Source: Acidimicrobium ferrooxidans (GTDB lineage Bacteria; Actinomycetota; Geothermincolia; Fen-727; Anoxymicrobiaceae). From it: DNA of 64,000 bases. Below are positions 6,873-21,898 of the stretch, one piece after another. Under the pieces are notes generated by a model. It did no database searches. It saw only the letters and a program-made list of their open reading frames with translations, and was not told the DNA's origin. Both the position numbers and the translations under genes were made by a program. The stretch covers positions 234,448 through 298,447 of the forward strand of contig DYIU01000004.1 of assembly GCA_020723485.1 (NCBI GenBank), read 5' to 3'. The first letter of the stretch is position 1. Each line of letters opens with the position of its first letter.

Positions 6873-7110
6873 AGTCGAACCCCCGTCCGTCGCTGCGCTC
6901 CTCGCAGGGGCTCGTCGCTCCGCTTCCACAAGGGGGGACTCTCGTCCCCCCTAGTGCGCTCGCTATCGCTCGCTGTTACCCCCCTGATGTTGGATTGTGG
7001 GGGGGATACTCCCCCCACAAAAGAAGACCCCCCCTGACGGGGGTTCGACTCCCCCCCGGTAAGGGGATCGCTGAAGTATGGTGGAGGCGGGGGGAGTCGA
7101 ACCCCCGTCC
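6873..7110. repeat. Direct and inverted repeats of the ssrA 3' end
   Basis: The 16-mer AGTCGAACCCCCGTCC from the tmRNA T-arm (7095-7110) recurs as a direct repeat at 6873-6888, 222 bp away. A 21-bp copy in inverted orientation lies at 7036-7056. The stretch between them (6889-7035) is low-complexity GC sequence without an ORF. tmRNA 3' ends are common integrase targets, so this may be the remnant of an excised or decayed integrated element; it could also be local duplication. Confidence 0.6.
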
Positions 7111-7427
7111 AGAAGAGCCTCAGCCGTGGTCTCTACGAGCGTGTCCCGCGGTTTAAAGTCTCGCAGGCGGTCCGGCCCGCGGGCGGCCTCGCCGTCGCCA
7201 GTCCCGGAAAAGTTTCGCCCCCGCGCCGTCGGGACCCCGGCGCCGGGGCTATCCTGCTGACGTCGCCCTACCCGGGGCCGCAGGCACTCACCCGGGGGAC
7301 GTGGCTACCTAAGCAGCCAGAGCCAATTCAGAATCGGCGTTTGGTTTTTTCCAACAGTTTCACGAGATGTTGGAGCTCGACTCGCACCAGAGCCTCTAAT
7401 CACTCCTGTCGAAACCGTATCGCCCCC
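7079..7427 (-). ncRNA. ssrA: Transfer-messenger RNA (tmRNA)
   Basis: The 5' end GGGGGCGATACGGTTTCGAC pairs with the 3' end CGCCTCC-ACCA to form the tRNA-like acceptor stem, and the 3' domain carries the T-arm GGACGGGGGTTCGACTCC. CCA is encoded. The tag reading frame ends ADSELALAA then TAG (codons 7338-7312, stop 7311-7309), the usual hydrophobic degron; the exact resume codon upstream of this is not certain. Length is about 349 nt. It lies 54 nt downstream of smpB, its protein partner in rescue of stalled ribosomes. Confidence 0.95.
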
Positions 7428-7481: not shown

Positions 7482-7967
7482 CTATTCGGAGCCGCCGCCG
7501 CGACCCCTCTCGCGCACCGCCCGCTCCATCTCGCGGTCCGCGTCCTTCCGCGCGATGTCGCGGCGCTTATCGTACTTGCGCTTGCCCCGAGCCAGCCCCA
7601 GCTCGACCTTTGCCCTGCCGTCCTTGAGGTACAGCCTGAGCGCGACCAGCGTATACCCCTTCTCCGTTATCCTCCCGGTGAGCCGCTTTATCTGGTCCTT
7701 GTGCAGCAAGAGCTTGCGAGGTCGCCTCTCTTCGTGCCCGAAGTGCGATGCCTGGACATACGGCGATATGCTCATCTCGTAGAGCCATATCTCGCCTCCC
7801 TCAACCGTCGCGTACGCGTCGCGCATGGAGGCCCTTCCCTCACGTATAGACTTTATCTCGCTCCCGACCAGTACTATGCCCGCCTCCAGCTTCTCCTCTA
7901 CCTCGTAGTCGCGGAGAGCCTTGCGGTTGGTAGCCTTGACCTGAATCCCGGTCCTCTGAACTGCCAT
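7482..7967 (-). CDS. smpB: SsrA-binding protein SmpB
   Basis: This 161-aa protein has the canonical SmpB features: NRKALRDYEVEEKLEAGIVL, GSEIKSIREGRASMRDAY, and a basic C-terminal tail KRKYDKRRDIARKD that enters the ribosomal A site. It binds tmRNA for trans-translation. It directly precedes ssrA on the same strand. An extended -10 element ends 7 nt before the ATG, so the mRNA may be leaderless. Confidence 0.97.
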   Translation of the reverse strand: MAVQRTGIQVKATNRKALRDYEVEEKLEAGIVLVGSEIKSIREGRASMRDAYATVEGGEIWLYEMSISPYVQASHFGHEERRPRKLLLHKDQIKRLTGRITEKGYTLVALRLYLKDGRAKVELGLARGKRKYDKRRDIARKDADREMERAVRERGRGGGSE

Positions 7968-8036: not shown

Positions 8037-8077
8037 ACTTGAATCTGCGGCCTGACCCCGGAAGTTAAGTGTCAGGC
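8037..8077. repeat. Degenerate CGGGGTCAGG palindromic element
   Basis: GCCTGAC (8050-8056) pairs with GTCAGGC (8071-8077), and the flanks ACTTGAATC and TTAAGT match the arms of the element at 41296-41380. It overlaps the stop codon of the ctp peptidase gene (8072-8074) and could act as its terminator hairpin. Confidence 0.5.
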
Positions 8078-9505
8078 GGCCAGCAGGTCCAGCTCGCCCG
8101 TGGGCGGCCTGCCCTGGATGATGTTGTTCAGGACCTCTTTGGCCTTGTCGAACTGCTGCTGCTGGGTCTGCTCGGGCTCGTCCTTTATCTCGGCTACCTC
8201 GATGTCCGGCTGGATGCCCTTGCCGTCGATGGACTCCCCGTTCGGGAGGTAGTAAAGAGCTATGGTGAGTTTGGCCGCGCCGCTGTTGTCCAGCTCGAAC
8301 ACCTTCTGGACCGAGCCCTTGCCGTAGGTCTTCGAGCCGACCAGTACCGCTCGCCCGCGGTCCTTGAGCGCGCCCGCCAGTATCTCCGATGAGCTGGCGC
8401 TCCCGCCGTTGGTGAGGACAACCAGGGGGAGGTTCGTCTCTGCGCCTCCGCTGGCGTTTTCCGTCACCTCTTTCTCACCCTTGGTCTGGTAGGAGACGAT
8501 AGGCCCGTCGTTGATGAAGACGCTCGCCGACTTGACCGCCTCGTCCAGCAGCCCGCCGGGGTCGTTGCGCACATCGAGTATGAACCCCTTTACGCCCTTC
8601 TGCTGCATGTCCCTGACCGCCGTGCGGAGCTTCTGGGACACCCCGTCGTTGAACTCGAGCAGGCGGAGCACCCCGATGTTGCCGTCGACTATCTCCGATT
8701 CAAAGTCGGGGACGTTTATCTTCTCCCGGGTCATGGTGAACGTCATGGGCTTGCCGTCACGCTGAACCTTTATCTTGACCTTGGTCCCCTTCTTGCCCCT
8801 GATGCGCAGCACGACCGCGTCGAGCGGCTCGCCCTTGGTGTCCTTTCCGTCCACGGACATGATGACGTCTTCTGGTTTTATCCCGGCTCGCTCGCTGGGG
8901 GAGTCCTTGATGATGGTGACCACCCTCGGCCTCTTCAGGTCCTCGTCGTTTCGCAGGGTGAACCCGACGCCGTAGAAGCTGCCGCTCAGGTCCTCTCCCA
9001 GCCGCCTGTTGACTGTCGGCGAAAGATAGCTGCTGTGCTGGTCGCCAAGCGCGTTCACCAGAGCCGTGAGACCCTCATCGAGGAGCTCGTCCGGGTCCTC
9101 CTCGCCCTTCTTCTCGGCCTTGGCCACGGCGTCATCGGCCGCCTTCACGATCTTTTCCTCTGAGTACTTCTTGTAGTAGTACTGCCTGATGTTGAAGAGA
9201 GCTTCCTGGTAGGTCGGCGATGATTCGAGGTCGAACTTCTCCGAGTCCTCGCTGAAAAGGACTTTGTCTATTACCAGGCCCGCGATGAGGAGCCCCGCCA
9301 GGAGCAGGAATACCACCACTACCGAGAGTATTATCTTGCCGCGCCGGGACATACCCCCGTTGTCGAGCGGCGGGAGGTCGTAGGGAGGCCCCCCCGTGCC
9401 GTACTGCCCGGGAGCGGCCGGTGGATACTGGTACTGCGGGGGCGCCTGGTCCGCGGGGTGACCGGGGCCGGGTGGAGCCTGCCCGCTGCCTGTCTGTTCG
9501 TCCAT
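8072..9505 (-). CDS. ctp: Carboxy-terminal processing protease (S41 family)
   Basis: This 477-aa protein has a proline/glutamine-rich cytoplasmic N-terminus, one transmembrane helix at about residues 56-80 and an extracytoplasmic S41 peptidase. A PDZ domain (YGVGFTLRNDED onward, GIKPEDVIMSVDG) precedes the catalytic Ser in GGSASSSEILAGAL and the Lys of GSKTYGKGS. Such proteases trim C-termini of envelope proteins, often peptidoglycan hydrolases. The position after ftsEX fits FtsEX-controlled cell-wall hydrolysis. Its stop codon lies in a degenerate palindromic repeat. Confidence 0.93.
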   Translation of the reverse strand: MDEQTGSGQAPPGPGHPADQAPPQYQYPPAAPGQYGTGGPPYDLPPLDNGGMSRRGKIILSVVVVFLLLAGLLIAGLVIDKVLFSEDSEKFDLESSPTYQEALFNIRQYYYKKYSEEKIVKAADDAVAKAEKKGEEDPDELLDEGLTALVNALGDQHSSYLSPTVNRRLGEDLSGSFYGVGFTLRNDEDLKRPRVVTIIKDSPSERAGIKPEDVIMSVDGKDTKGEPLDAVVLRIRGKKGTKVKIKVQRDGKPMTFTMTREKINVPDFESEIVDGNIGVLRLLEFNDGVSQKLRTAVRDMQQKGVKGFILDVRNDPGGLLDEAVKSASVFINDGPIVSYQTKGEKEVTENASGGAETNLPLVVLTNGGSASSSEILAGALKDRGRAVLVGSKTYGKGSVQKVFELDNSGAAKLTIALYYLPNGESIDGKGIQPDIEVAEIKDEPEQTQQQQFDKAKEVLNNIIQGRPPTGELDLLAA

Positions 9506-9616
9506 CAGGTGTCTTTCATGCCTGCCGTGGTTTTTCGCAGGCTCAATAATAACGCATATGCCGACTGGTATGACGCGTGCCGCCGGCCGCCGGTTCCACC
9601 GGGGCCGGGGCCCGGA

Positions 9617-10519
9617 CTAGACCTCGATGTACCTCCGCAGGGCGAAGGCGCTCCCGACGGCTCCTATGATTATCCCGAAGAAGACCAGCAGGAAAGCCAG
9701 GAGAGCCGTATAGCCGCCGGTGACGAGGTCTTCTATGCCCACCGCGCTGCCGAACTTCTCGATGAGGAATGAGTGGAGCAGGACGGTGACCAGTATCGCG
9801 ACCAGCGCGCCCAGGAAACCCTCGATGACCCCCTCCATCATGAACGGCCAGCGGATGAACCAGTTGGTGGCACCCACCAGCTTCATGATGCCTATCTCCT
9901 TGCGGCGCGAGTAGATGGCCATCCTGATGGTTATCGACACCAGGGATATGGCCACTATACCGAAGGCGATGACGACCACGAAGCCTATCTTCTGGACGAG
10001 CCCGGTCACCCTCAAGACCTTGCCGACCACGTCCTTCTCGTTCTTTATCTCGGGCTTGCCCGCAGCGTCCTTGCTGACCTCGGTACGCGTCTCGAGACGC
10101 TTGGCCACGGTGTTGTTGTACTTGGGGTCGGTCATGCGCACCCGGAACGACGCCGGCAGCGGGTTGCCCTCGATCTCGCGGAGCATGTCCTGCTGGTCCT
10201 TGAACATCTCCTTGTACTCCTCGAGAGCTTCGTCCTTGGAGATGTACTTTACGCTCTTGACCTCGTCCATCTTCTGGATGAAGGTCGTCATGCTCGCGAC
10301 TTCCTCGCTCGTGACGTCCTCTTTCAGGAACACCCGTATCTCGTCGACCCGCTGTTTCATGTCGGCGGCGATGCCGTTCCCGGTGTGGACCAGCATGCTG
10401 ACTATCCCGAGTATGATGAGCGACAGGCTGGTGACCATTATGGCGGCCACAGTGAGCGCCATGTTGCGGCGCATGCTCGAGGATGATTCTCTGAGGAAGT
10501 ACTTCCAGTTAACTGCCAT
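9617..10519 (-). CDS. ftsX: Cell division protein FtsX
   Basis: This 300-aa protein has one N-terminal transmembrane helix (about residues 20-45), a large extracellular loop, and three C-terminal helices, the FtsX/MacB-like permease layout. Motifs include RRNMALTVAAIMVTSLSL and YSRRKEIGIMKLVGA. It forms the FtsEX complex, which transmits ATP hydrolysis to cell-wall hydrolases at the septum. The ATG at 10519 follows GAGAGGGG and overlaps ftsE by 11 nt, so translation is probably coupled. Confidence 0.95.
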   Translation of the reverse strand: MAVNWKYFLRESSSSMRRNMALTVAAIMVTSLSLIILGIVSMLVHTGNGIAADMKQRVDEIRVFLKEDVTSEEVASMTTFIQKMDEVKSVKYISKDEALEEYKEMFKDQQDMLREIEGNPLPASFRVRMTDPKYNNTVAKRLETRTEVSKDAAGKPEIKNEKDVVGKVLRVTGLVQKIGFVVVIAFGIVAISLVSITIRMAIYSRRKEIGIMKLVGATNWFIRWPFMMEGVIEGFLGALVAILVTVLLHSFLIEKFGSAVGIEDLVTGGYTALLAFLLVFFGIIIGAVGSAFALRRYIEV

Positions 10520-11195
10520 ACCCGTAGACCCCTCTCGCCTGGTCACGGATGACCCGTCCGTCGCGCAGCTCGACCACCCTCTTCTTGAACGTGTTCACGA
10601 TGTCCTGGTCGTGGGTGGCCATGATGACGGTGGTGCCGGTGTTGTTTATCCTCTCGAGGAGCTTCACGATGCCCATGGACATCGACGGGTCCAGGTTCCC
10701 GGTCGGCTCGTCGGCGAGCAGTATCGGCGGGCGGTTGACGAACGCCCTGGCGATGGACACGCGCTGCTGCTCCCCTCCGGACATCTCGTCCGGGTAGGAA
10801 TCGAGCTTGTGAGATAGCCCGACCAGCCTCAGGACCTCCGGCACGTACGTCTCGATGACCCTCCTGGGGCGGCCGGTGACCTCGAGAGCGTAGGCGACGT
10901 TCTCGTAGACCGTCTTCTGCGGCAGGAGCTTGAAGTCCTGGAAGACGCACCCCACCTTGCGCCGCAGGTACGGTATCTTCCATTTCTTGATGTCCGAGAG
11001 GTTCGTGTCCGCTATGTAGAGCTGGCCGTTGGTGGGCTCCTCCTCCTTCAGCATGAGCTTGATGAAGGTGGACTTACCCGAGCCGCTCGGCCCCACGATG
11101 AACACGAACTCTTTCTTGGCTATGTCGACGGTCACGTCGTCCAGGGCGTAGATGTTGCCCTGGTAGACCTTTGTCACTCTCCTGAACTTAATCAA
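10509..11195 (-). CDS. ftsE: Cell division ATP-binding protein FtsE
   Basis: This protein of about 228 aa has Walker A GPSGSGKST, signature SGGEQQR and Walker B ILLADEP in the arrangement of FtsE, plus the FtsE-typical F-x-x-V-x-K-x-Y start (FRRVTKVYQG). The in-frame ATG at 11210 is itself part of the GGAGGGAG ribosome binding site, so the TTG at 11195 is the more likely start. It is the first gene of ftsE-ftsX-ctp and has a good promoter upstream. Confidence 0.95.
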   Translation of the reverse strand: MIKFRRVTKVYQGNIYALDDVTVDIAKKEFVFIVGPSGSGKSTFIKLMLKEEEPTNGQLYIADTNLSDIKKWKIPYLRRKVGCVFQDFKLLPQKTVYENVAYALEVTGRPRRVIETYVPEVLRLVGLSHKLDSYPDEMSGGEQQRVSIARAFVNRPPILLADEPTGNLDPSMSMGIVKLLERINNTGTTVIMATHDQDIVNTFKKRVVELRDGRVIRDQARGVYGYGS

Positions 11196-11230
11196 GAGTA
11201 CTCCCTCCAATACGCTCGTTCATGTTACTG

Positions 11231-11259
11231 ATGATAATTAATGTTGCACAAGTTTTCAA
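11231..11259 (-). promoter_or_regulatory. Sigma-70-type promoter of ftsEX
   Basis: On the minus strand TTGAAA (11259-11254) is separated by exactly 17 nt from TATCAT (11236-11231), about 35 nt before the ftsE start. The surrounding stretch 11211-11345 is unusually AT-rich for this genome and also contains a small AGCCAA/TTGGCT hairpin near 11280-11295. No gene is seen between 11211 and 11461. Confidence 0.65.
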
Positions 11260-11461
11260 GTGTTAACTCTTGACAAGAGCCAATGTGTTGGCTGTGTTGC
11301 GTAAGTTAAATTATGTTGATTTTGTATTATATTGTTTCTTCAGGTTCCACTTCCTCCGCCGGAGGCCACCGGCCTGAATACTAGAGCCGCGCAGGCAATC
11401 GACTGCGGGCGTGCCTGAAAGGCCCCGTTCCGTCACCCGGCCGGGGCTATATATATTTGGC

Positions 11462-12205
11462 TCACTCGAACGGTATATCCTTCTTCCCCCTCGAGCGCAG
11501 GAACTCAAGCACAGATTCGGCGTCCCTGTTCACTATCACGTCCTCCGGGACGCCCGCCTCGTCTATGAGCTCCAGGGCCCTGTCGAACACCCCCACCTGC
11601 GACGCGTCGTGAGCGTCGCTACCTACAACCAGCCTCGTCCCGTGTCGCATGGCTTCTCGCACCACGACCCGGCAGTTCTCGAGGCTGCCCTTGCGGACAT
11701 GGGTGAACGACGAGTTGTTGACCTCCATCAGCACGTTGTTTGACGCGGCCGCGGCGGCCACGGTTTCGTAGTCGAGAGGGTACCAGGGGTTGCCCGGGTG
11801 GACCATGATATCGACCAACCCGCTCTCGATCGCCGCGACGGCGGCCCTGGTGTTCTCCTCCACCGATCTTCCCTCGTAGCCGGTCGTCGGGTGGATCCCG
11901 GCATGGACCACGTCCAGCACACCCAGCACGCGCTCGTCCAGGTCGAGCCTGCCTTCGGCGTCGATGATGTTGCACTCGGCGCTGCGGAGGACCTTCACCC
12001 CGCTCAGCACGCGGGGCAGGACCACCAGGTTCGCGAAGTGATACGTGTGGGGGCCGCCGGGCATGGACGGTCCGTGGTCGGTCAGGGCCACCATCTCGAG
12101 CCCGCGGGAGGCCGCTTCTGCGCACACCTCCCTGATGGTCGAGTAGCCGTGGCCGCTCGAGACCGTGTGCACGTGGAGGTCCGTCCTTATGCGCGGGGCG
12201 GCCAT
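11462..12205 (-). CDS. PHP-domain metal-dependent phosphoesterase
   Basis: This 247-aa protein has the PHP metal-binding motifs in order: DLHVHT (residue 9), TDHGP (about 42), HPGNP (about 136) and SDAHD (about 196). It resembles the YcdX/HisK-like group of phosphatases, with an unknown substrate. The ATG at 12205 overlaps the prfB stop by one nucleotide (TGATG), which indicates coupled translation. A longer open frame upstream is just the shadow of prfB. Confidence 0.88.
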   Translation of the reverse strand: MAAPRIRTDLHVHTVSSGHGYSTIREVCAEAASRGLEMVALTDHGPSMPGGPHTYHFANLVVLPRVLSGVKVLRSAECNIIDAEGRLDLDERVLGVLDVVHAGIHPTTGYEGRSVEENTRAAVAAIESGLVDIMVHPGNPWYPLDYETVAAAAASNNVLMEVNNSSFTHVRKGSLENCRVVVREAMRHGTRLVVGSDAHDASQVGVFDRALELIDEAGVPEDVIVNRDAESVLEFLRSRGKKDIPFE

Positions 12206-13333
12206 CAGCCCGCCCCCTTCGCCGGCTCGGCCTCCTGCTTCTTCATCCACCGCAGGCCCTCCTCGATGAACTCGTCGATGCCGCCGTCCATGACCGCCTG
12301 GACGTTCCCCGTCTCGACGCCGGTCCTGTGGTCCTTGACGAGCTGGTAAGGATGGAAGACGTACGAGCGTATCTGGGAGCCCCAGCCTATGTCCTTGCGC
12401 TGGCCCCGTATCGCCTGTATCTCCTTCATCTTCTCCTGGCGCGCTATCTCGTAGAGGCGCGACTTCAGTATCTTCATGGCTATCGTCCTGTTGCTCATCT
12501 GGGAGCGCTCGTTCTGGCACTGCACCACTATGCCGGTGGGGACGTGGGTTATCCTCACCGCCGAGTCGGTGACGTTCACGTGCTGGCCTCCGGCCCCCGA
12601 GGAGCGGTAGGTGTCTATGCGCAGGTCCCTGGGGTCGACCTCGATGTCGATGTCCTCGCCTATCTCCGGTATCACGTCGAGCGACACGAAAGAAGTGTGG
12701 CGCCGCTTCGAGAAGTCGAACGGTGATATCCGCACCAGCCTGTGCACGCCCTTCTCGGGGGCCATGAGGCCGTAGGCGTTGCGGCCGCGCACCGTGAACG
12801 TCGCGCTCTTGATGCCCCCGCCGTCGCCCGGCTGCACGTCGTTCAGGTCCACCTCGAAGCCCCGGCTCTCCGCCCACCTCTGGTACATGCGCATGAGCAT
12901 CTCGGCCCAGTCCTGCGACTCGAGCCCGCCTGCGCCGGGGTGCAGGGAGACGATGGCGTTGCTCGAATCGAGCTCGCCCTGCAGGAGCGCCTCGTCCTCG
13001 ATGGCCCGCAGCTCCTTCTCGAGCTGCCCGAGCCCGGCCCGGATGTCACCCTCGAACGAGGGGTCGTCCTCGGCCAGGCCCATGGTGTTCATCTCCTCGA
13101 GCTCGGCCACCCGCTCCGCCGCCCGGTCGTACCGGGACACCTTCTCCTCCAGGCGTGAAAGGAGGGCCATGGTGTTCCTGGCCCTCTCCTGGTCGTCCCA
13201 GAAGCCGGGAGCGTTCGCCTCCCGGCGAAGCTTCTCTAGCTCGGTGCGCGATGTAGCCAGGTCAAAGGTAATCACCTATCTTCTCTAGCCTGTTGCGTAC
13301 GGACGCCACTTCGTCCTCGAAATCGACTACCAT
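12205..13333 (-). CDS. prfB: Peptide chain release factor 2, programmed +1 frameshift
   Basis: The downstream frame encodes the RF2 core with the stop-codon-reading SPF tripeptide (RISPFDF) and the catalytic GGQ (SSGAGGQHVNV). The true start is an ATG at 13333 after GGAGAGAG. It opens a 23-codon frame ending at an in-frame UGA (13264-13262) in the context CTT-TGA-C, preceded by AGGTGA. A +1 slip at CTT joins the frames and gives about 375 aa, the normal RF2 size. A start at GTG 13275 would lose the N-terminus. The frameshift lets RF2 sense its own level, since it terminates at UGA. Confidence 0.95.
13261..13280 (-). promoter_or_regulatory. prfB programmed frameshift site
   Basis: The minus-strand sequence AGGTGATTACCTTTGAC provides an SD-like AGGTGA, the slippery CTT codon, a zero-frame TGA stop at codon 24 and the following C, the classic RF2 autoregulatory arrangement. 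Confidence 0.93.
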
Positions 13334-13367
13334 CTCTCTCCTTAAGCCAGTTGAGTATTATTCTATT

Positions 13368-15968
<2,601 letters not shown>

Positions 15969-17614
15969 CGGGAGTCAACGCCTCCTTCGGTAACCTGGGG
16001 TAGACGCGCGCTATCGCGCGCAGGACCTTGCTGTCGTAACGAACGCCGCGCTCCAGGTTCATCTCGACGAGCGCCTCGTTCGCGGTGAGCGGCTCACGGG
16101 TCTCCCCGCCGCGCAGCAGGGACTCGAAGTCGTCCACCGCCCTAAGTATCCCGGCGCCGAGGCTGACGGCCCTGCGCTTGCCCACGTCTACCACGCGGTC
16201 GCGCAGGCCTTCCCTGCCGTGCAGTATCTCGGCGGCAACCTCAAGGTAGTCCACCTGGCCGAGTATGTCCACCCCGCCTGAGATGACCCCCTCGACCTCG
16301 GCGAGCTCCCTCTGGTCCTCGGCGCCCTTCCTGGTTATCGCGCCTATGTCGTGCAGGTACGCGGCGTACTCGACCTGCTTGACGTCCTCGGGCGAGAGGC
16401 CCAGCTCGCGGGCCACACCCTCGGACAGCCGTGCCACCCGCTCCCCGTGCCCCTGCTCCAGGAGCCCGGTCTTCTCGGGGATGGCGGACAGCACCCGGAC
16501 CGTCTCGATAAGGTCCTGGTCGGTCGCCGCTACGCGGTAATACGCGTACGCGATGACGGGCAGCACCGGGAGGACGAACAGCGTCGCCCACATCCCGATG
16601 CCGACGAATATCATCCCCATCAGGACGCCCAGGAAACCGAGCATGAGAAACGCGAACCATGACTTCCGCAGGACGCTCTGCAGGTAGAGCCCCGGGGAGA
16701 AGTAACCCTGCTCGGCCTGTATGTAGGCCGACCTGCCGAGGTAGAACACGTACAGCACGCCCGCGCAGATGCCGGCGGAGACCAGCAGCGCGGGCGTGTA
16801 GTGCCCGAGCAGGACCGGCTTCTGCGGAAGGATGGTCATGAGCCCGAAGAAGAGGAAAGCGGTGATGCCTACGCCGGTGAACTCCACCAGCATACCCACC
16901 ACGTCCTCTTTCTTGAGCTCGCCGAACATCCTGGTCACGAGCGTTACGATGGTCCCGAACAGGAATATCCAGATGACCTGGACGCAGCCCGCGGCCGTTA
17001 TCTTGTCGTACGGGATGGTGGGCAGCGCGACCGGGAGCGCGATGAGGGCCCCCAGCAAGGGAGCGAGGCCCACGTTGACGGTCCCCCCGCCCTTCAGGTC
17101 GAGCTGCAGGTGGGCGGCCAGCGTAAAGAGCACCAGCCAGAAGACGAAGTTGCCGTAGTCTATCTTCCCGAGCCTGGTGAACAGTATGGTCAGAACGAGC
17201 GTGGCGAGGGCCGCTGCTATGGCCAGCGGCAGCGCGAGGGGAATGCCCCGCCCCGCTCTCTCGCGGGGAGCCCTGGCCCCCCCGGAAGGGCCTCGCGTGC
17301 GTCTTGCGGGCAGGGCGAGGTCCTCCTCTTCGGGAACCGGTTCCTCGTCCTCGAAATCCGCCTCGACCTCGGGTGCCCCGGCGCGCTCGCGGGCCCTCGC
17401 CCGCGCCGGCGCCTCGGACTCGAAGCGCTCGAACTCGGCGTCCCTGGCCTCGAGAGCCTCTTCCGCAGGCTCCTCGAAGATCGACCCCTCTGCCTCGATC
17501 TTCTCGGCGGCCGCGACCGTGGCCTTGTAGGCGAGCTCTTCCTCGGTATCGGCCTCGGTGACGGTATCTTCCCAGGCGAGCTCCTCCTCGGCGTCGAGGA
17601 AGGTCGGCTTCTGC

Positions 17615-19249
17615 CTAGGAGTCTTCCTCTCGCGGCCCGGCGTCTTCCTCGCCCTTCTTCCTGCGGGAGGACGACCGCCTTTTCTGCTCTCTGGCCCCTC
17701 GTCTCGATCTCGCACTATCGGACCTCTCCCATTCGCGGATGTCCTTCTCTATTTCGCCTCTTACGTCTGTGTATTTGATGCCCTCGGCCGGCGTAGCCCC
17801 GGCGGGCGCCTCCTGCCCGGCCGGCACCTGGGCCGCATCCGTCAGCGAGGACTGCTGCCCCTCCGGGATGAGCCTCGGCTGCTCCTCAGTCACCCTGGCC
17901 TTAGGCATCTTCAGCCTGTCCCTGAGCGCTCCGGTCCAGAGCCCGCGGGCCGTGACCACCTTTATGAAGGCGTCAACCACCTCGGTGTCGAACTGGATGC
18001 CCTTGGCCTTTATCACCTCGGAAGCGGCCTGCTGCGCGTCCAGCGGCGGCCGGAAGGCCGTCGGCCGCTGCATCGCGTCGAAGCTGTCGGCCACCGACAG
18101 TATCCGGGCCCCCACCGGGATGGTCTCCCCGGCGAGGCCGTCCGGGTACCCGGCGCCGTCCGTCATCTCGTGGTGGTGCCTTATGGTGGGAGTCACCCTG
18201 GCGAATGACAGCTCGGTGGCCACCACCTCGGCAGATATCAGCGGGTGCTTCTTTATCTCCTCGTATTCCTCCGGCGTAAGCGGGCCCTCCTTGTTGACCA
18301 CATCCGGGTCGAGCGCCAGCCTGCCTACGTCGTGCAGCAGGGCGGCCTGCCTCAGGAAATGGAGGTCCTCCTCCGCGAAGTCCATCTCCTCGGCGATCGC
18401 GACGGCTATGTCGGCAACGCCGGTGCTGTGGCCTTCCTGGAACATCCCCCTGCTCTCCACCGCGCCCATGACTGCGAGCGTCGTGTCATCACAGACGTCG
18501 CGCATGGTGCCGTAGCGCGTGTAGACGACCCTGACCGCCAGCAGCGGCGCGAACAGCAGGATGACCGCCGGATATTCGAGCTTGACGTAGACTATCGCGG
18601 TCAGGAAACCGATGCCGCCGTAGAGCAGGTAGCCCGGGAACTTGGTGAGCAGGCGCCTCTCCCAGAAACGCACGAGCCTGCCGCCTTCGGGTGTGAGCAC
18701 CAGCGCGGCGAACACCGTGTTGATAACGAAGAACACCAGCAGAGCCAGTATCCACGGTATCACCAGCTGGCCGCCGTTCTTGAGCGCCGCGTCGATGGTC
18801 TCGCCCCCGGTGTGCCTGAACACCCAGGCCGAGGTCCCGGACGCGAGCACGAGCATGGTGGTGTTGAAGAGTATCCTGCGCACTCCCTGTTTGCCGCGCT
18901 CCATGTAGAAGACGGGGACGCCGAACAGGGCTACGACCGCCGCGCCCAGCGGCCCGGAGACCATCATCGCCATCACGACGGGCAGGAACGCGAGCGAGAG
19001 CCGCCCCCCGGCTTTCATGGGAAGCGCGAAGAACTCCGAGGCGAAGAACAGCACCCCGATCAGGGCCACTGCCCACCAGTTCTCTTTCTTGGCGGTGAGC
19101 ACCAGCAGGGCTATCATCGCCGCGGTGAGGACCAGCGCCACGGCCAGGGCGTTGTCGGCCCTGCCCCTGGGCAGCCTCGGCTGCTTCTCCCGGGGTTCCT
19201 TGCCCTCGAAGAGAGAGTCGTCCAGCTCGAGCCCGCCGCGCTTCACCAT
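17615..19249 (-). CDS. Membrane-anchored HD-GYP domain protein
   Basis: This 544-aa protein has multiple transmembrane helices in residues ~33-245, then an HD-GYP domain with HDVGR at 306-310 and HHHEMTDGAGYPDG at 358-371. The metal and GYP motifs needed for c-di-GMP hydrolysis therefore look intact. A basic/acidic C-terminal tail (RRGAREQKRRSSSRRKK) follows and is encoded in the region that overlaps the next HD gene. It probably links an envelope signal to cyclic-dinucleotide turnover; the input is unknown. ATG start after a possible 28-codon leader ORF. Confidence 0.82.
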   Translation of the reverse strand: MVKRGGLELDDSLFEGKEPREKQPRLPRGRADNALAVALVLTAAMIALLVLTAKKENWWAVALIGVLFFASEFFALPMKAGGRLSLAFLPVVMAMMVSGPLGAAVVALFGVPVFYMERGKQGVRRILFNTTMLVLASGTSAWVFRHTGGETIDAALKNGGQLVIPWILALLVFFVINTVFAALVLTPEGGRLVRFWERRLLTKFPGYLLYGGIGFLTAIVYVKLEYPAVILLFAPLLAVRVVYTRYGTMRDVCDDTTLAVMGAVESRGMFQEGHSTGVADIAVAIAEEMDFAEEDLHFLRQAALLHDVGRLALDPDVVNKEGPLTPEEYEEIKKHPLISAEVVATELSFARVTPTIRHHHEMTDGAGYPDGLAGETIPVGARILSVADSFDAMQRPTAFRPPLDAQQAASEVIKAKGIQFDTEVVDAFIKVVTARGLWTGALRDRLKMPKARVTEEQPRLIPEGQQSSLTDAAQVPAGQEAPAGATPAEGIKYTDVRGEIEKDIREWERSDSARSRRGAREQKRRSSSRRKKGEEDAGPREEDS

Positions 19250-19339: not shown

Positions 19340-19888
19340 CTAGCGAGAGGTGTCTATCAGGCCGTAGTTCCCGTCGTTGCGCCTGTATACCACGTTGGTA
19401 TTGTCGGTCTCGGCGTTTGTGAACACGAAGAAGTCGTGGCCGAGCATCTCCATCTGGAGCGCGGCCTCCTCGGGGGTCATGGGCTTTAGCGCGATGGACT
19501 TTGTCTTGACAATGGCCTGCACGCCCTCGGGTGCCTCCTCCGGTGGAGTCGGACCACGCAGCGCGCTCTCCTGGGCCTGTGTCCTGTCTATCTGCTTTCC
19601 GTGGTACTTCTTTATCTGGCGCTGGAGCTTGGAGACCGCCTTGTCCACCGCGACGTACATGTCGCGGTCGCGCTCGGTAGCCCTCAGGATGCGCCCGTTA
19701 CGGTTGCCGAACAGGGTCAGCTCGGCAATCTGGTTCTCCTGAATGCTCGGGTTCTTCTCGACCACCAGCTTGACCTCGATCTCCTTGAAGCCGAGGTCGA
19801 GCTTCTCTATCTTCGAGACCTTCTGCCGGGCATGGTCCCGCAGAGCGTCTGTTACCTCGATGTTCTTTCCCTTGATCACAACCTGCAA
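19340..19888 (-). CDS. hpf: Ribosome hibernation promoting factor, long form
   Basis: This 182-aa protein has the N-terminal HPF/RaiA domain (MQVVIKGKNIEVTDALRDHA to about residue 100) and the C-terminal dimerisation domain ending VVYRRNDGNYGLIDTSR. That is the long HPF that dimerises 70S ribosomes into 100S particles in stationary phase. It follows cspA on the same strand; a hairpin (stem 19954-19961 with 19983-19990) lies between them. It precedes the HD genes and secA, a common Gram-positive neighbourhood. Confidence 0.95.
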   Translation of the reverse strand: MQVVIKGKNIEVTDALRDHARQKVSKIEKLDLGFKEIEVKLVVEKNPSIQENQIAELTLFGNRNGRILRATERDRDMYVAVDKAVSKLQRQIKKYHGKQIDRTQAQESALRGPTPPEEAPEGVQAIVKTKSIALKPMTPEEAALQMEMLGHDFFVFTNAETDNTNVVYRRNDGNYGLIDTSR

Positions 19889-19953
19889 CTGGCTACCTCC
19901 AGGAAACTGCTCACGTCACGGAGCGCCCGCCTGCGCGCTCACGAGCAAGAGTA

Positions 19954-19990
19954 CAACCCCACCTTGAACCTTATGGCAAGAATGGGGTTG
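19954..19990 (-). other. Hairpin between cspA and hpf
   Basis: CAACCCCA and TGGGGTTG form an 8-bp stem with an inner CTTG/CAAG helix. No T-tract follows on the minus strand, so it is more likely an mRNA processing or stability element than a terminator. Confidence 0.4.
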
Positions 19991-20012
19991 CAATAATTAA
20001 GCTCTTTTCGCG

Positions 20013-20216
20013 TTAGCTCTGCCTGGTGACGTTGGTCGCCTTCGGACCCCTGTCACCCTCTGCTACCTCGAACTGCACCGCTTCGCCCTCGTTCAGGGTG
20101 CGGTATCCGTCGGCCTGTATGTCGGAGAAGTGAACGAAGACGTCATCCCCGTTCTCGCGCTCGATGAAGCCGAACCCCTTCTCCGGGTTGAACCACTTTA
20201 CAACTCCTGATTCCAA
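20013..20216 (-). CDS. cspA: Cold shock protein
   Basis: From the TTG at 20216 (after GGGGGAG) the product is 67 aa, the standard CSP size, starting [17 protein letters not shown] with both RNA-binding motifs (KGFGFI and DVFVHF). It is a single-stranded nucleic-acid chaperone. The longer open frame to 20258 adds a non-homologous N-terminus and passes through the predicted promoter leader. It lies between the structured RNA candidate and hpf. Confidence 0.95.
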
Positions 20217-20248: not shown

Positions 20249-20277
20249 AGGGTACCATACGTGCCTGTCAGTGTCCA
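20249..20277 (-). promoter_or_regulatory. Candidate promoter of cspA
   Basis: On the minus strand TGGACA (20277-20272) and TACCCT (20254-20249) are separated by 17 nt and lie about 33 nt before the TTG start. Confidence 0.45.
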
Positions 20278-20372: not shown

Positions 20373-20600
20373 AAAAAGAGCCCGGGCCCCGCTGACCTGG
20401 TCTTTGGCCCCACACTCGCCTGCGGAGAGTTTGCAGCCCCGTAACTCCGTTAACGGGACCACGCCCTCTTCTCCCCTTTTCGGAGGCAGGACTTACCCCT
20501 AAGCCGCACCATGCTCAGCAACCATTTGTTGCCTTACGTGGGTCGTTTCGCCTGCGACTGGCATCGACTTTCAACCACAGACCGGGACCCGGACAAAGCT
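20373..20600 (-). ncRNA. Structured non-coding RNA candidate, possibly the raiA motif
   Basis: The 482-nt gap between flgM and cspA has no gene but contains nested helices on the minus strand. A closing stem pairs 20575-20583 with 20399-20407 (GGTCT/AGACC core). Within it are a CCCAC/GTGGG helix (20538-20542 with 20409-20413), a two-part hairpin 20542-20568, a GCAAC/GTTGC hairpin near 20517-20532, a CCCGT/ACGGG stem at 20438-20457 and a CTGC/GCAG stem at 20420-20436. The loop of the last can pair with GGAGTT of the former. A GC-rich stretch and T5 (20377-20373) end it. The raiA motif occurs near hpf/raiA and comFC in Firmicutes and Actinobacteria, matching this context. Its identity is inference. 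Confidence 0.45.
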
Positions 20601-20635
20601 TAAACAAGAAGTACCTTGTTGATGTTAACGTGGGG

Positions 20636-20698: not shown

Positions 20699-20965
20699 TC
20701 AGTGGAGCTTGTCGGAGATGATGCGGCCGATGAGCTTCTTGGCCACGTCGTCGCCGGACACGTTGTAGCTCGAGCTCTCGAGCGCCTTGCGGACCTTCTC
20801 TACCCTGTCCTGCCGAACGGGCGGCATCTCGTCGATGCGCCGGACGACCTGCTGGATGCCGGCGATCTCCTCCGGGCTGAGCGCCTGAACCTCTTGCTCG
20901 CCCATGGACTCCTTCTTCTTGAGAAGGTCCAGCGTATTCTGAATTTCGCGGTCAGATAACTGCAT
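20699..20965 (-). CDS. flgM: FlgM-like anti-sigma-28 factor
   Basis: The 88-aa product has the FlgM C-terminal pattern VRQDRVEKVRKALESSSYNVSGDDVAKKLIG, which binds flagellar sigma factor SigD/FliA and holds it inactive. The ATG at 20965 follows AGGTGAG. It lies downstream of comFC, the same order as comFC-yvyF-flgM in Bacillus, but no flagellar structural gene follows here. It either regulates flagella encoded elsewhere or has been kept for another sigma factor. Confidence 0.8.
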   Translation of the reverse strand: MQLSDREIQNTLDLLKKKESMGEQEVQALSPEEIAGIQQVVRRIDEMPPVRQDRVEKVRKALESSSYNVSGDDVAKKLIGRIISDKLH

Positions 20966-21130
20966 AATCACTCACCTGCGAAAAGTTCGCTCTCGCGCTT
21001 TCCACTCTATATGAGTCTTGTATCGTCAGCTCGCGAACGAACCTGAAACCGCCTGCCTCAAACCGCACCTATAGGATACACCCTTATGCAGACACTTTTC
21101 ACAAATCCTGCCAAAAAAATCGTCAATTCG

Positions 21131-21196: not shown

Positions 21197-21898
21197 CTAT
21201 TTCGCGGGCTCCTCTTGCGTGAGGTGCCCCCGGCGCAGGGACGCGGCCGCCGCGACGAGCACGTGCACCGATCCGGCGCCGCCCTCAACGAGCGCGCGCG
21301 CGCAGTTCTCGACCGTGGCGCCCGTCGTCAGCACGTCGTCGACCAGGAGCACTTTCGCACCGCCCATGTTTCCCCTCTTCGGGCGGAACACACCCTCCAC
21401 GTTGAGCCACCTCATCCTGCCGCTCACGCTGTCCTGGTCCAGGGTCGACCTGGTCTTCTCGAGGAGGTCGCAGAGCGGCCTCCCCACGAGCGAAGCCACC
21501 TGTTGAGCCAGGAGCCCGGCCGGGTTGAAGCCCCTCTCGGCGACCCTGGCGCGCTCTGACGGGACGAAGCAGACGACGTCGGCGCCGACATAGTCGGGGT
21601 GGTTCCCCGCCGCGGCCGCCATCAGGCTGCCCAGCGGCGCCGCGAACGGCCTGGCGGATGACTTCAGGCGCAGGACCATATCGCGCATCACGCCATCGTA
21701 GGTGCCCGCCGCGCGGGCCTCGCTGACAGACGCGGCGCCTGTGCCGCGAGGTCTGTGGATCCGCTCCCCGTTCCCCGAATCCGCGGCAAGCGCGGTGAGA
21801 CAGCCCCGGCACAGGCAGGCGCCCGGGGCTCCGCAGCCCAGGCACTCCGCCGGGTAGAGCAGGTCGAGCAGTTCCTCCTTGAGCGATGCGAGTCTCAC
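21197..21898 (-). CDS. comFC: ComF family phosphoribosyltransferase-like protein
   Basis: This 233-aa protein has an N-terminal four-cysteine zinc site (ECLGCGAPGACLCRGC) and a C-terminal type I phosphoribosyltransferase domain with the PRPP-binding loop VLLVDDVLTTGAT. That is the ComFC architecture, required for DNA uptake in naturally competent bacteria, with an unknown exact role. The ATG at 21898 gives the normal N-terminus. It is followed by flgM, a conserved pairing. Confidence 0.92.
   Translation of the reverse strand: MRLASLKEELLDLLYPAECLGCGAPGACLCRGCLTALAADSGNGERIHRPRGTGAASVSEARAAGTYDGVMRDMVLRLKSSARPFAAPLGSLMAAAAGNHPDYVGADVVCFVPSERARVAERGFNPAGLLAQQVASLVGRPLCDLLEKTRSTLDQDSVSGRMRWLNVEGVFRPKRGNMGGAKVLLVDDVLTTGATVENCARALVEGGAGSVHVLVAAAASLRRGHLTQEEPAK

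Follow-up and report, generated by a model that had tools for sequence, protein, structure and literature searches.

The 482-nt gap between an flgM-like gene and cspA in the window (the whole 64,000-nt stretch of DNA analysed here) holds a raiA (ModT) noncoding RNA, a standard representative of that established family, on the minus strand at 20383-20591. When the window was searched against Rfam 15, the raiA covariance model (RF03072) matched the 209-nt core at 20591-20383 (-) over model positions 1-209 of 209, with a score of 169.6 bits where the cut-off is 101.3 (E 7.4e-43). The RNA is present in a single copy in the genome. An earlier note on this DNA had guessed its identity from the neighbourhood and the helices, and had proposed this model search; the full-length, minus-strand match, far above the curated cut-off, bears the guess out. 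The extent of the gap, from the flgM end at 20699 to the TTG start of cspA at 20216, is as that note gave it, and so is the setting between comFC-flgM and cspA-hpf, with comFC upstream and hpf downstream of raiA.

The minus strand, to which the folded element had been assigned, gives a minimum free energy of -89.2 kcal/mol (z -2.9), and 1 of 200 shuffles was equally stable. Because this energy lies only moderately below that of shuffles, it is the model match and the covariation that carry the case. A chance fold within a GC-rich gap would agree with the moderate excess of stability (z -2.9), but is refuted by the model match (E 7e-43) together with covariation in 29 sequences, and its probability is practically nil.

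Fold and covariation of the RNA

The homologous gaps of relatives, which the earlier note had suggested comparing, hold raiA with covarying pairs. In an alignment of 29 raiA sequences, the 57 pairs of the known fold were paired in 90.8% of cells, versus 22-44% (at most 43.5%) after sliding by 1 to 3 columns. Both sides had changed in 26 of the 57 pairs, against 16.4 in shuffles, and the covariation score was 0.231 against 0.110; none of 500 shuffles attained the observed values, although the shuffles ignore relatedness, so that these figures are not probabilities. Judged on this alignment the raiA fold is strongly covarying, one pseudoknot pair included. Unpaired bases are densely conserved as well.

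The closing helix P1 pairs 20583-20591 with 20383-20391 in its outer part, where all 9 pairs form a covarying arm in the class, and 20578-20580 with 20392-20394 and 20573-20577 with 20398-20402 in its inner parts. A 3-bp extension past the Rfam model takes the outer arm to 20583-20594 (5' strand) and 20380-20391 (3' strand). The long-range closing stem drawn in the earlier note (20575-20583 with 20399-20407) is off by one in register: one of its positions is unpaired throughout, a second lacks a partner in 18 of the 29 relatives, and it does not covary. The loop-loop contact proposed there, GGAGTT with AACTC, is likewise not conserved, with covariation no higher than in shuffles and better pairing after a slide of +1; these bases are part of stems P7 and P8, both of which covary. 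The genuine long-range loop contact is pk-1, in which the P3 loop AGUCGCA (20553-20559) forms seven pairs with UGCGGCU (20502-20508). All seven are standard pairs in 29 of 29 sequences, and one varies between C-G, U-G and U-A. A pk-1 of seven pairs that joins the P3 loop to the P5-P6 junction has been described for raiA (PMC11751092).

The P7/P8 arm, at 20426-20469 on the minus strand, is shortened in the order of the window. By MAFFT alignment it is about 11 columns shorter on its 5' side in 12 of 12 order members relative to sister families, and P8 still folds in each of the 12. Within the raiA family, P5, P7 and P8 differ from member to member (PMC11706538).

Transcription and gene neighbourhood

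Four neighbouring genes of raiA in the window lie on its strand. Upstream are comFC, with a phosphoribosyltransferase domain (21197-21898; Pfam PF00156, E 1e-8), and the flgM-like gene (20699-20971; PF04316, E 5e-11). Downstream are cspA, encoding a cold-shock protein (20013-20216; PF00313, E 6e-30), and hpf (19340-19888; PF02482 and PF16321), whose product, protein RaiA, is the long-form ribosome hibernation factor. The comFC gene was tried as a raiA-linked marker and set aside, since TIGR00201 matched in 58 of 59 genomes whether or not they carried raiA, none over the cut-off, and thus does not discriminate. A cspA thermoregulator (RF01766) over the cspA gene region was also rejected, at 25.3 bits against a cut-off of 78. 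Further along the minus strand (8072-15968), going by their translations, the order hpf, secA, prfB continues with genes resembling ftsE and ftsX and one for a C-terminal protease. This order recalls that of B. subtilis, which has flagellar genes in the place of raiA and cspA. A tmRNA gene (RF00023) lies at 7079-7427 (-), with an smpB-like gene upstream (7482-7967).

Of 17 class members from outside the order of the window, 15 have a perfect TATAAT box whose distance from raiA is nearly constant. The window's own family has a weaker -10 box than these relatives, and a consensus promoter scan found none for the window's raiA copy. The best match by our own scoring is a weak candidate promoter, TTAACA - 18 nt - TTTAAG, at 20599-20628 (-), whose -10 box matches 4/6 and whose position is homologous to that of the TATAAT boxes. 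Within its spacer, just upstream of raiA, is a perfect inverted repeat, AACAAG-GTACTT-CTTGTT (20603-20620, minus strand), which was not seen in the nearest relative. At the other end, the T-run remarked on earlier is TCTTTTT at 20379-20373, directly 3' of P1, and is the likely end of the transcript. Across 40 genomes the first 12 nt past P1 contain a mean of 4.95 T versus 2.63 in downstream background (Mann-Whitney p about 1e-11, with genomes that are not independent of one another). Between raiA and cspA, conservation among 11 order members is confined to two blocks, TRGACA and TANNCT, spaced by about 17 nt, which form a promoter of cspA; in the window they read TGGACA - 17 nt - TACCCT (20249-20277, minus strand). 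The TATAAT boxes, the U-rich tail and a promoter belonging to cspA itself suggest that raiA and cspA are two separate transcription units. Transcription of raiA would start at the 5' strand of P1 and end in the U-tract past P1, so that both ends of the RNA would be clamped in that helix.

The hpf gene is preceded by hairpins of its own. One between cspA and hpf (19951-19992, minus strand; GCAACCCCATT...TGGGGTTG, also given as GCAACCYCATT...TGGGGTTG) is single copy and conserved in sequence in 7 genomes, with a T-run in loci L008 and L011. In the sister family (hpf loci L005, L007, L009, L013, L018-L020, L025-L027 and L029) a different hairpin, GCCCATACC...GGTATGGGC, stands just 5' of the hpf ribosome site, followed in most by a T-run; hpf there also has a promoter, TTGGCA-17-TAGGCT. 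These hairpins may be terminators or attenuators in front of hpf. An Rfam search of the hpf-upstream hairpin region gave no match to a family of the raiA-hairpin type.

Two other accounts of the transcript have been weighed. The RNA could be a processed 3' part of a comFC-flgM mRNA with no start of its own, and the weak raiA promoter of the window would suit this, as would the constancy of comFC, which in almost every locus that includes it precedes raiA on the same strand, even where hpf is reversed. Set against these points are the fixed-distance TATAAT boxes of the class relatives, a locus (L050) where, of comFC, raiA and cspA in that order, only raiA is turned round, and the one SigA start site reported in C. 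difficile (PMC11706538), and on balance we consider processing unlikely.

The type given to RF03072 in Rfam, 'Cis-reg; riboswitch', would instead make raiA a cis-acting riboswitch in the cspA-hpf leader, and in most class members raiA is indeed upstream of hpf or of cspA-hpf on the same strand. This type clashes with complementation of clostridial raiA in trans (PMC11706538) and with the reversed copies found here. In eight Aquicultor-type loci (L053, L054, L056, L058, L059, L060, L062 and L070) comFC and raiA are on the strand opposite cspA-hpf, and with L050 a total of 9 loci have raiA pointing away from hpf, which departs from a fixed same-strand leader position and is hard to square with control of hpf by a cis riboswitch. 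The literature, too, describes raiA in opposite orientations and acting in trans (PMC11477304, PMC11706538). In addition, a U-rich tract follows P1, and downstream of raiA there is a conserved promoter belonging to cspA. The changes in orientation and the separate cspA promoter thus argue against the riboswitch type, which is left with very little probability.

Distribution and function

The protein encoded by hpf has its nearest named matches in Actinomycetota metagenome-assembled genomes, namely Ca. Geohydrothermomicrobium daggyaiense (71% identity) and isolate fen_727 (84%). These matches, and the taxonomy of Ca. Geohydrothermomicrobium, would place the genome in or near Ca. Geothermincolia. 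The raiA model matches 40 of 59 genomes of the phylum and 29 of the 31 of the class, the window's own included. The two exceptions, G002 and G019, matched neither raiA nor the hpf of the window in searches that for hpf had no positive control there, and the G019 contig stops soon after comFC and flgM; the raiA locus is therefore probably missing from these assemblies rather than lost.

The earlier description of raiA as a conserved RNA of unknown function is partly outdated, now that raiA knock-outs have been phenotyped (PMC11706538) and structures of the RNA solved by cryo-EM (PMC11751092, PMC12286853). In C. difficile the RNA is abundant, stable, present as two isoforms and trans-acting; cells that lose it are slower to pass into stationary phase, contain more c-di-GMP and sporulate less (PMC11706538). 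In clostridia generally, loss affects growth transition, sporulation or aggregation and is complemented in trans; an ortholog from A. arabaticum, there called actinomycetal, complemented only partly (PMC11706538). Functional work on raiA is limited to clostridia, which counts against its transfer to this organism.

Sporulation is unlikely to be the core role of raiA. Spo0A_C was found in none of the 59 phylum genomes, and SpoIVA gave no match above cut-off in the same set and one weak match below it, while B. subtilis, the control, did give a match; absence of these two leaves other forms of sporulation possible. Endospore genes, tried as raiA partners, were thus not found in these 59 genomes. 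That nearly every genome of this uncultured class of actinobacteria carries raiA, and that neither of two key sporulation genes was found there, supports a basic role other than sporulation. A route through c-di-GMP is possible, given eight GGDEF proteins in the genome. Behind hpf, at 15922-19249 (-), are two HD-domain proteins of membrane type. The first has a legible HD-GYP signature, HHE..DG.GYP, of the c-di-GMP phosphodiesterase type, whereas the second looks degenerate. Across the phylum, HD-GYP showed no association with raiA (motif search, Fisher p 0.44), the link being confined to the order of the window.

We regard it as likely that raiA (ModT) is here an independently transcribed, compact, trans-acting RNA of about 210 nt that belongs to the growth transition. 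Trans action has been demonstrated in C. difficile and C. acetobutylicum; here too the RNA would act in this way and may help cells to move from growth to stationary phase, possibly via c-di-GMP; because spo0A and spoIVA were not found, this role would not be expected to need sporulation. That the molecular activity is catalytic, raiA being a trans-acting ribozyme, has been proposed (PMC11751092) and discussed (PMC11706538), and the densely conserved unpaired bases and compact, pseudoknotted fold fit it. Catalytic activity is not reported in the cited raiA literature, and a ribozyme would refine the explanation just given rather than replace it; we hold it doubtful, slightly more so than processing from the comFC-flgM mRNA.

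The flgM-like gene next to raiA raises a further idea. Of 30 relatives, 25 gave a match to FlgM (PF04316) and 7 to FlhA (PF00771), all seven FlgM-positive, so that 18 of 30 have FlgM and no FlhA match, some from incomplete assemblies; the window genome itself matched neither flagellin nor FlhA. In nearly all FlgM-positive genomes flgM is within about 0.5 kb upstream of raiA. By sequence comparison of nine order members that have no FlhA match, flgM is under purifying selection (mean pN/pS 0.29 vs 0.34 for hpf, with synonymous sites near saturation). The raiA RNA of Ca. Geothermincolia might conceivably work with the upstream FlgM-like protein, which would then have been recruited from flagella into growth control linked to raiA, a proposal that we consider improbable, more so than a ribozyme, and a little less so than the riboswitch.

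Comparison with known systems

The raiA-hairpin motif, a cis-acting element reported in Streptomyces (PMC8388888), is different from the raiA RNA. Its name implies a hairpin tied to raiA (hpf) genes, and the window also has a hairpin before hpf.

The closest comparison is the RF03072 RNA of Clostridium acetobutylicum (structures 9CXF and 9ELY), with which the RNA of the window shares the core, P1, P3, pk-1 and P4, as well as the comFC / hpf neighbourhood. It differs from known raiA RNA in the P7/P8 arm, which is without the approximately 11 columns that sister families have, and from known raiA hosts in that the two sporulation marker genes were not found in its group. Relative to known raiA loci, the window has two interposed genes, flgM on the comFC side of raiA and cspA on the hpf side.
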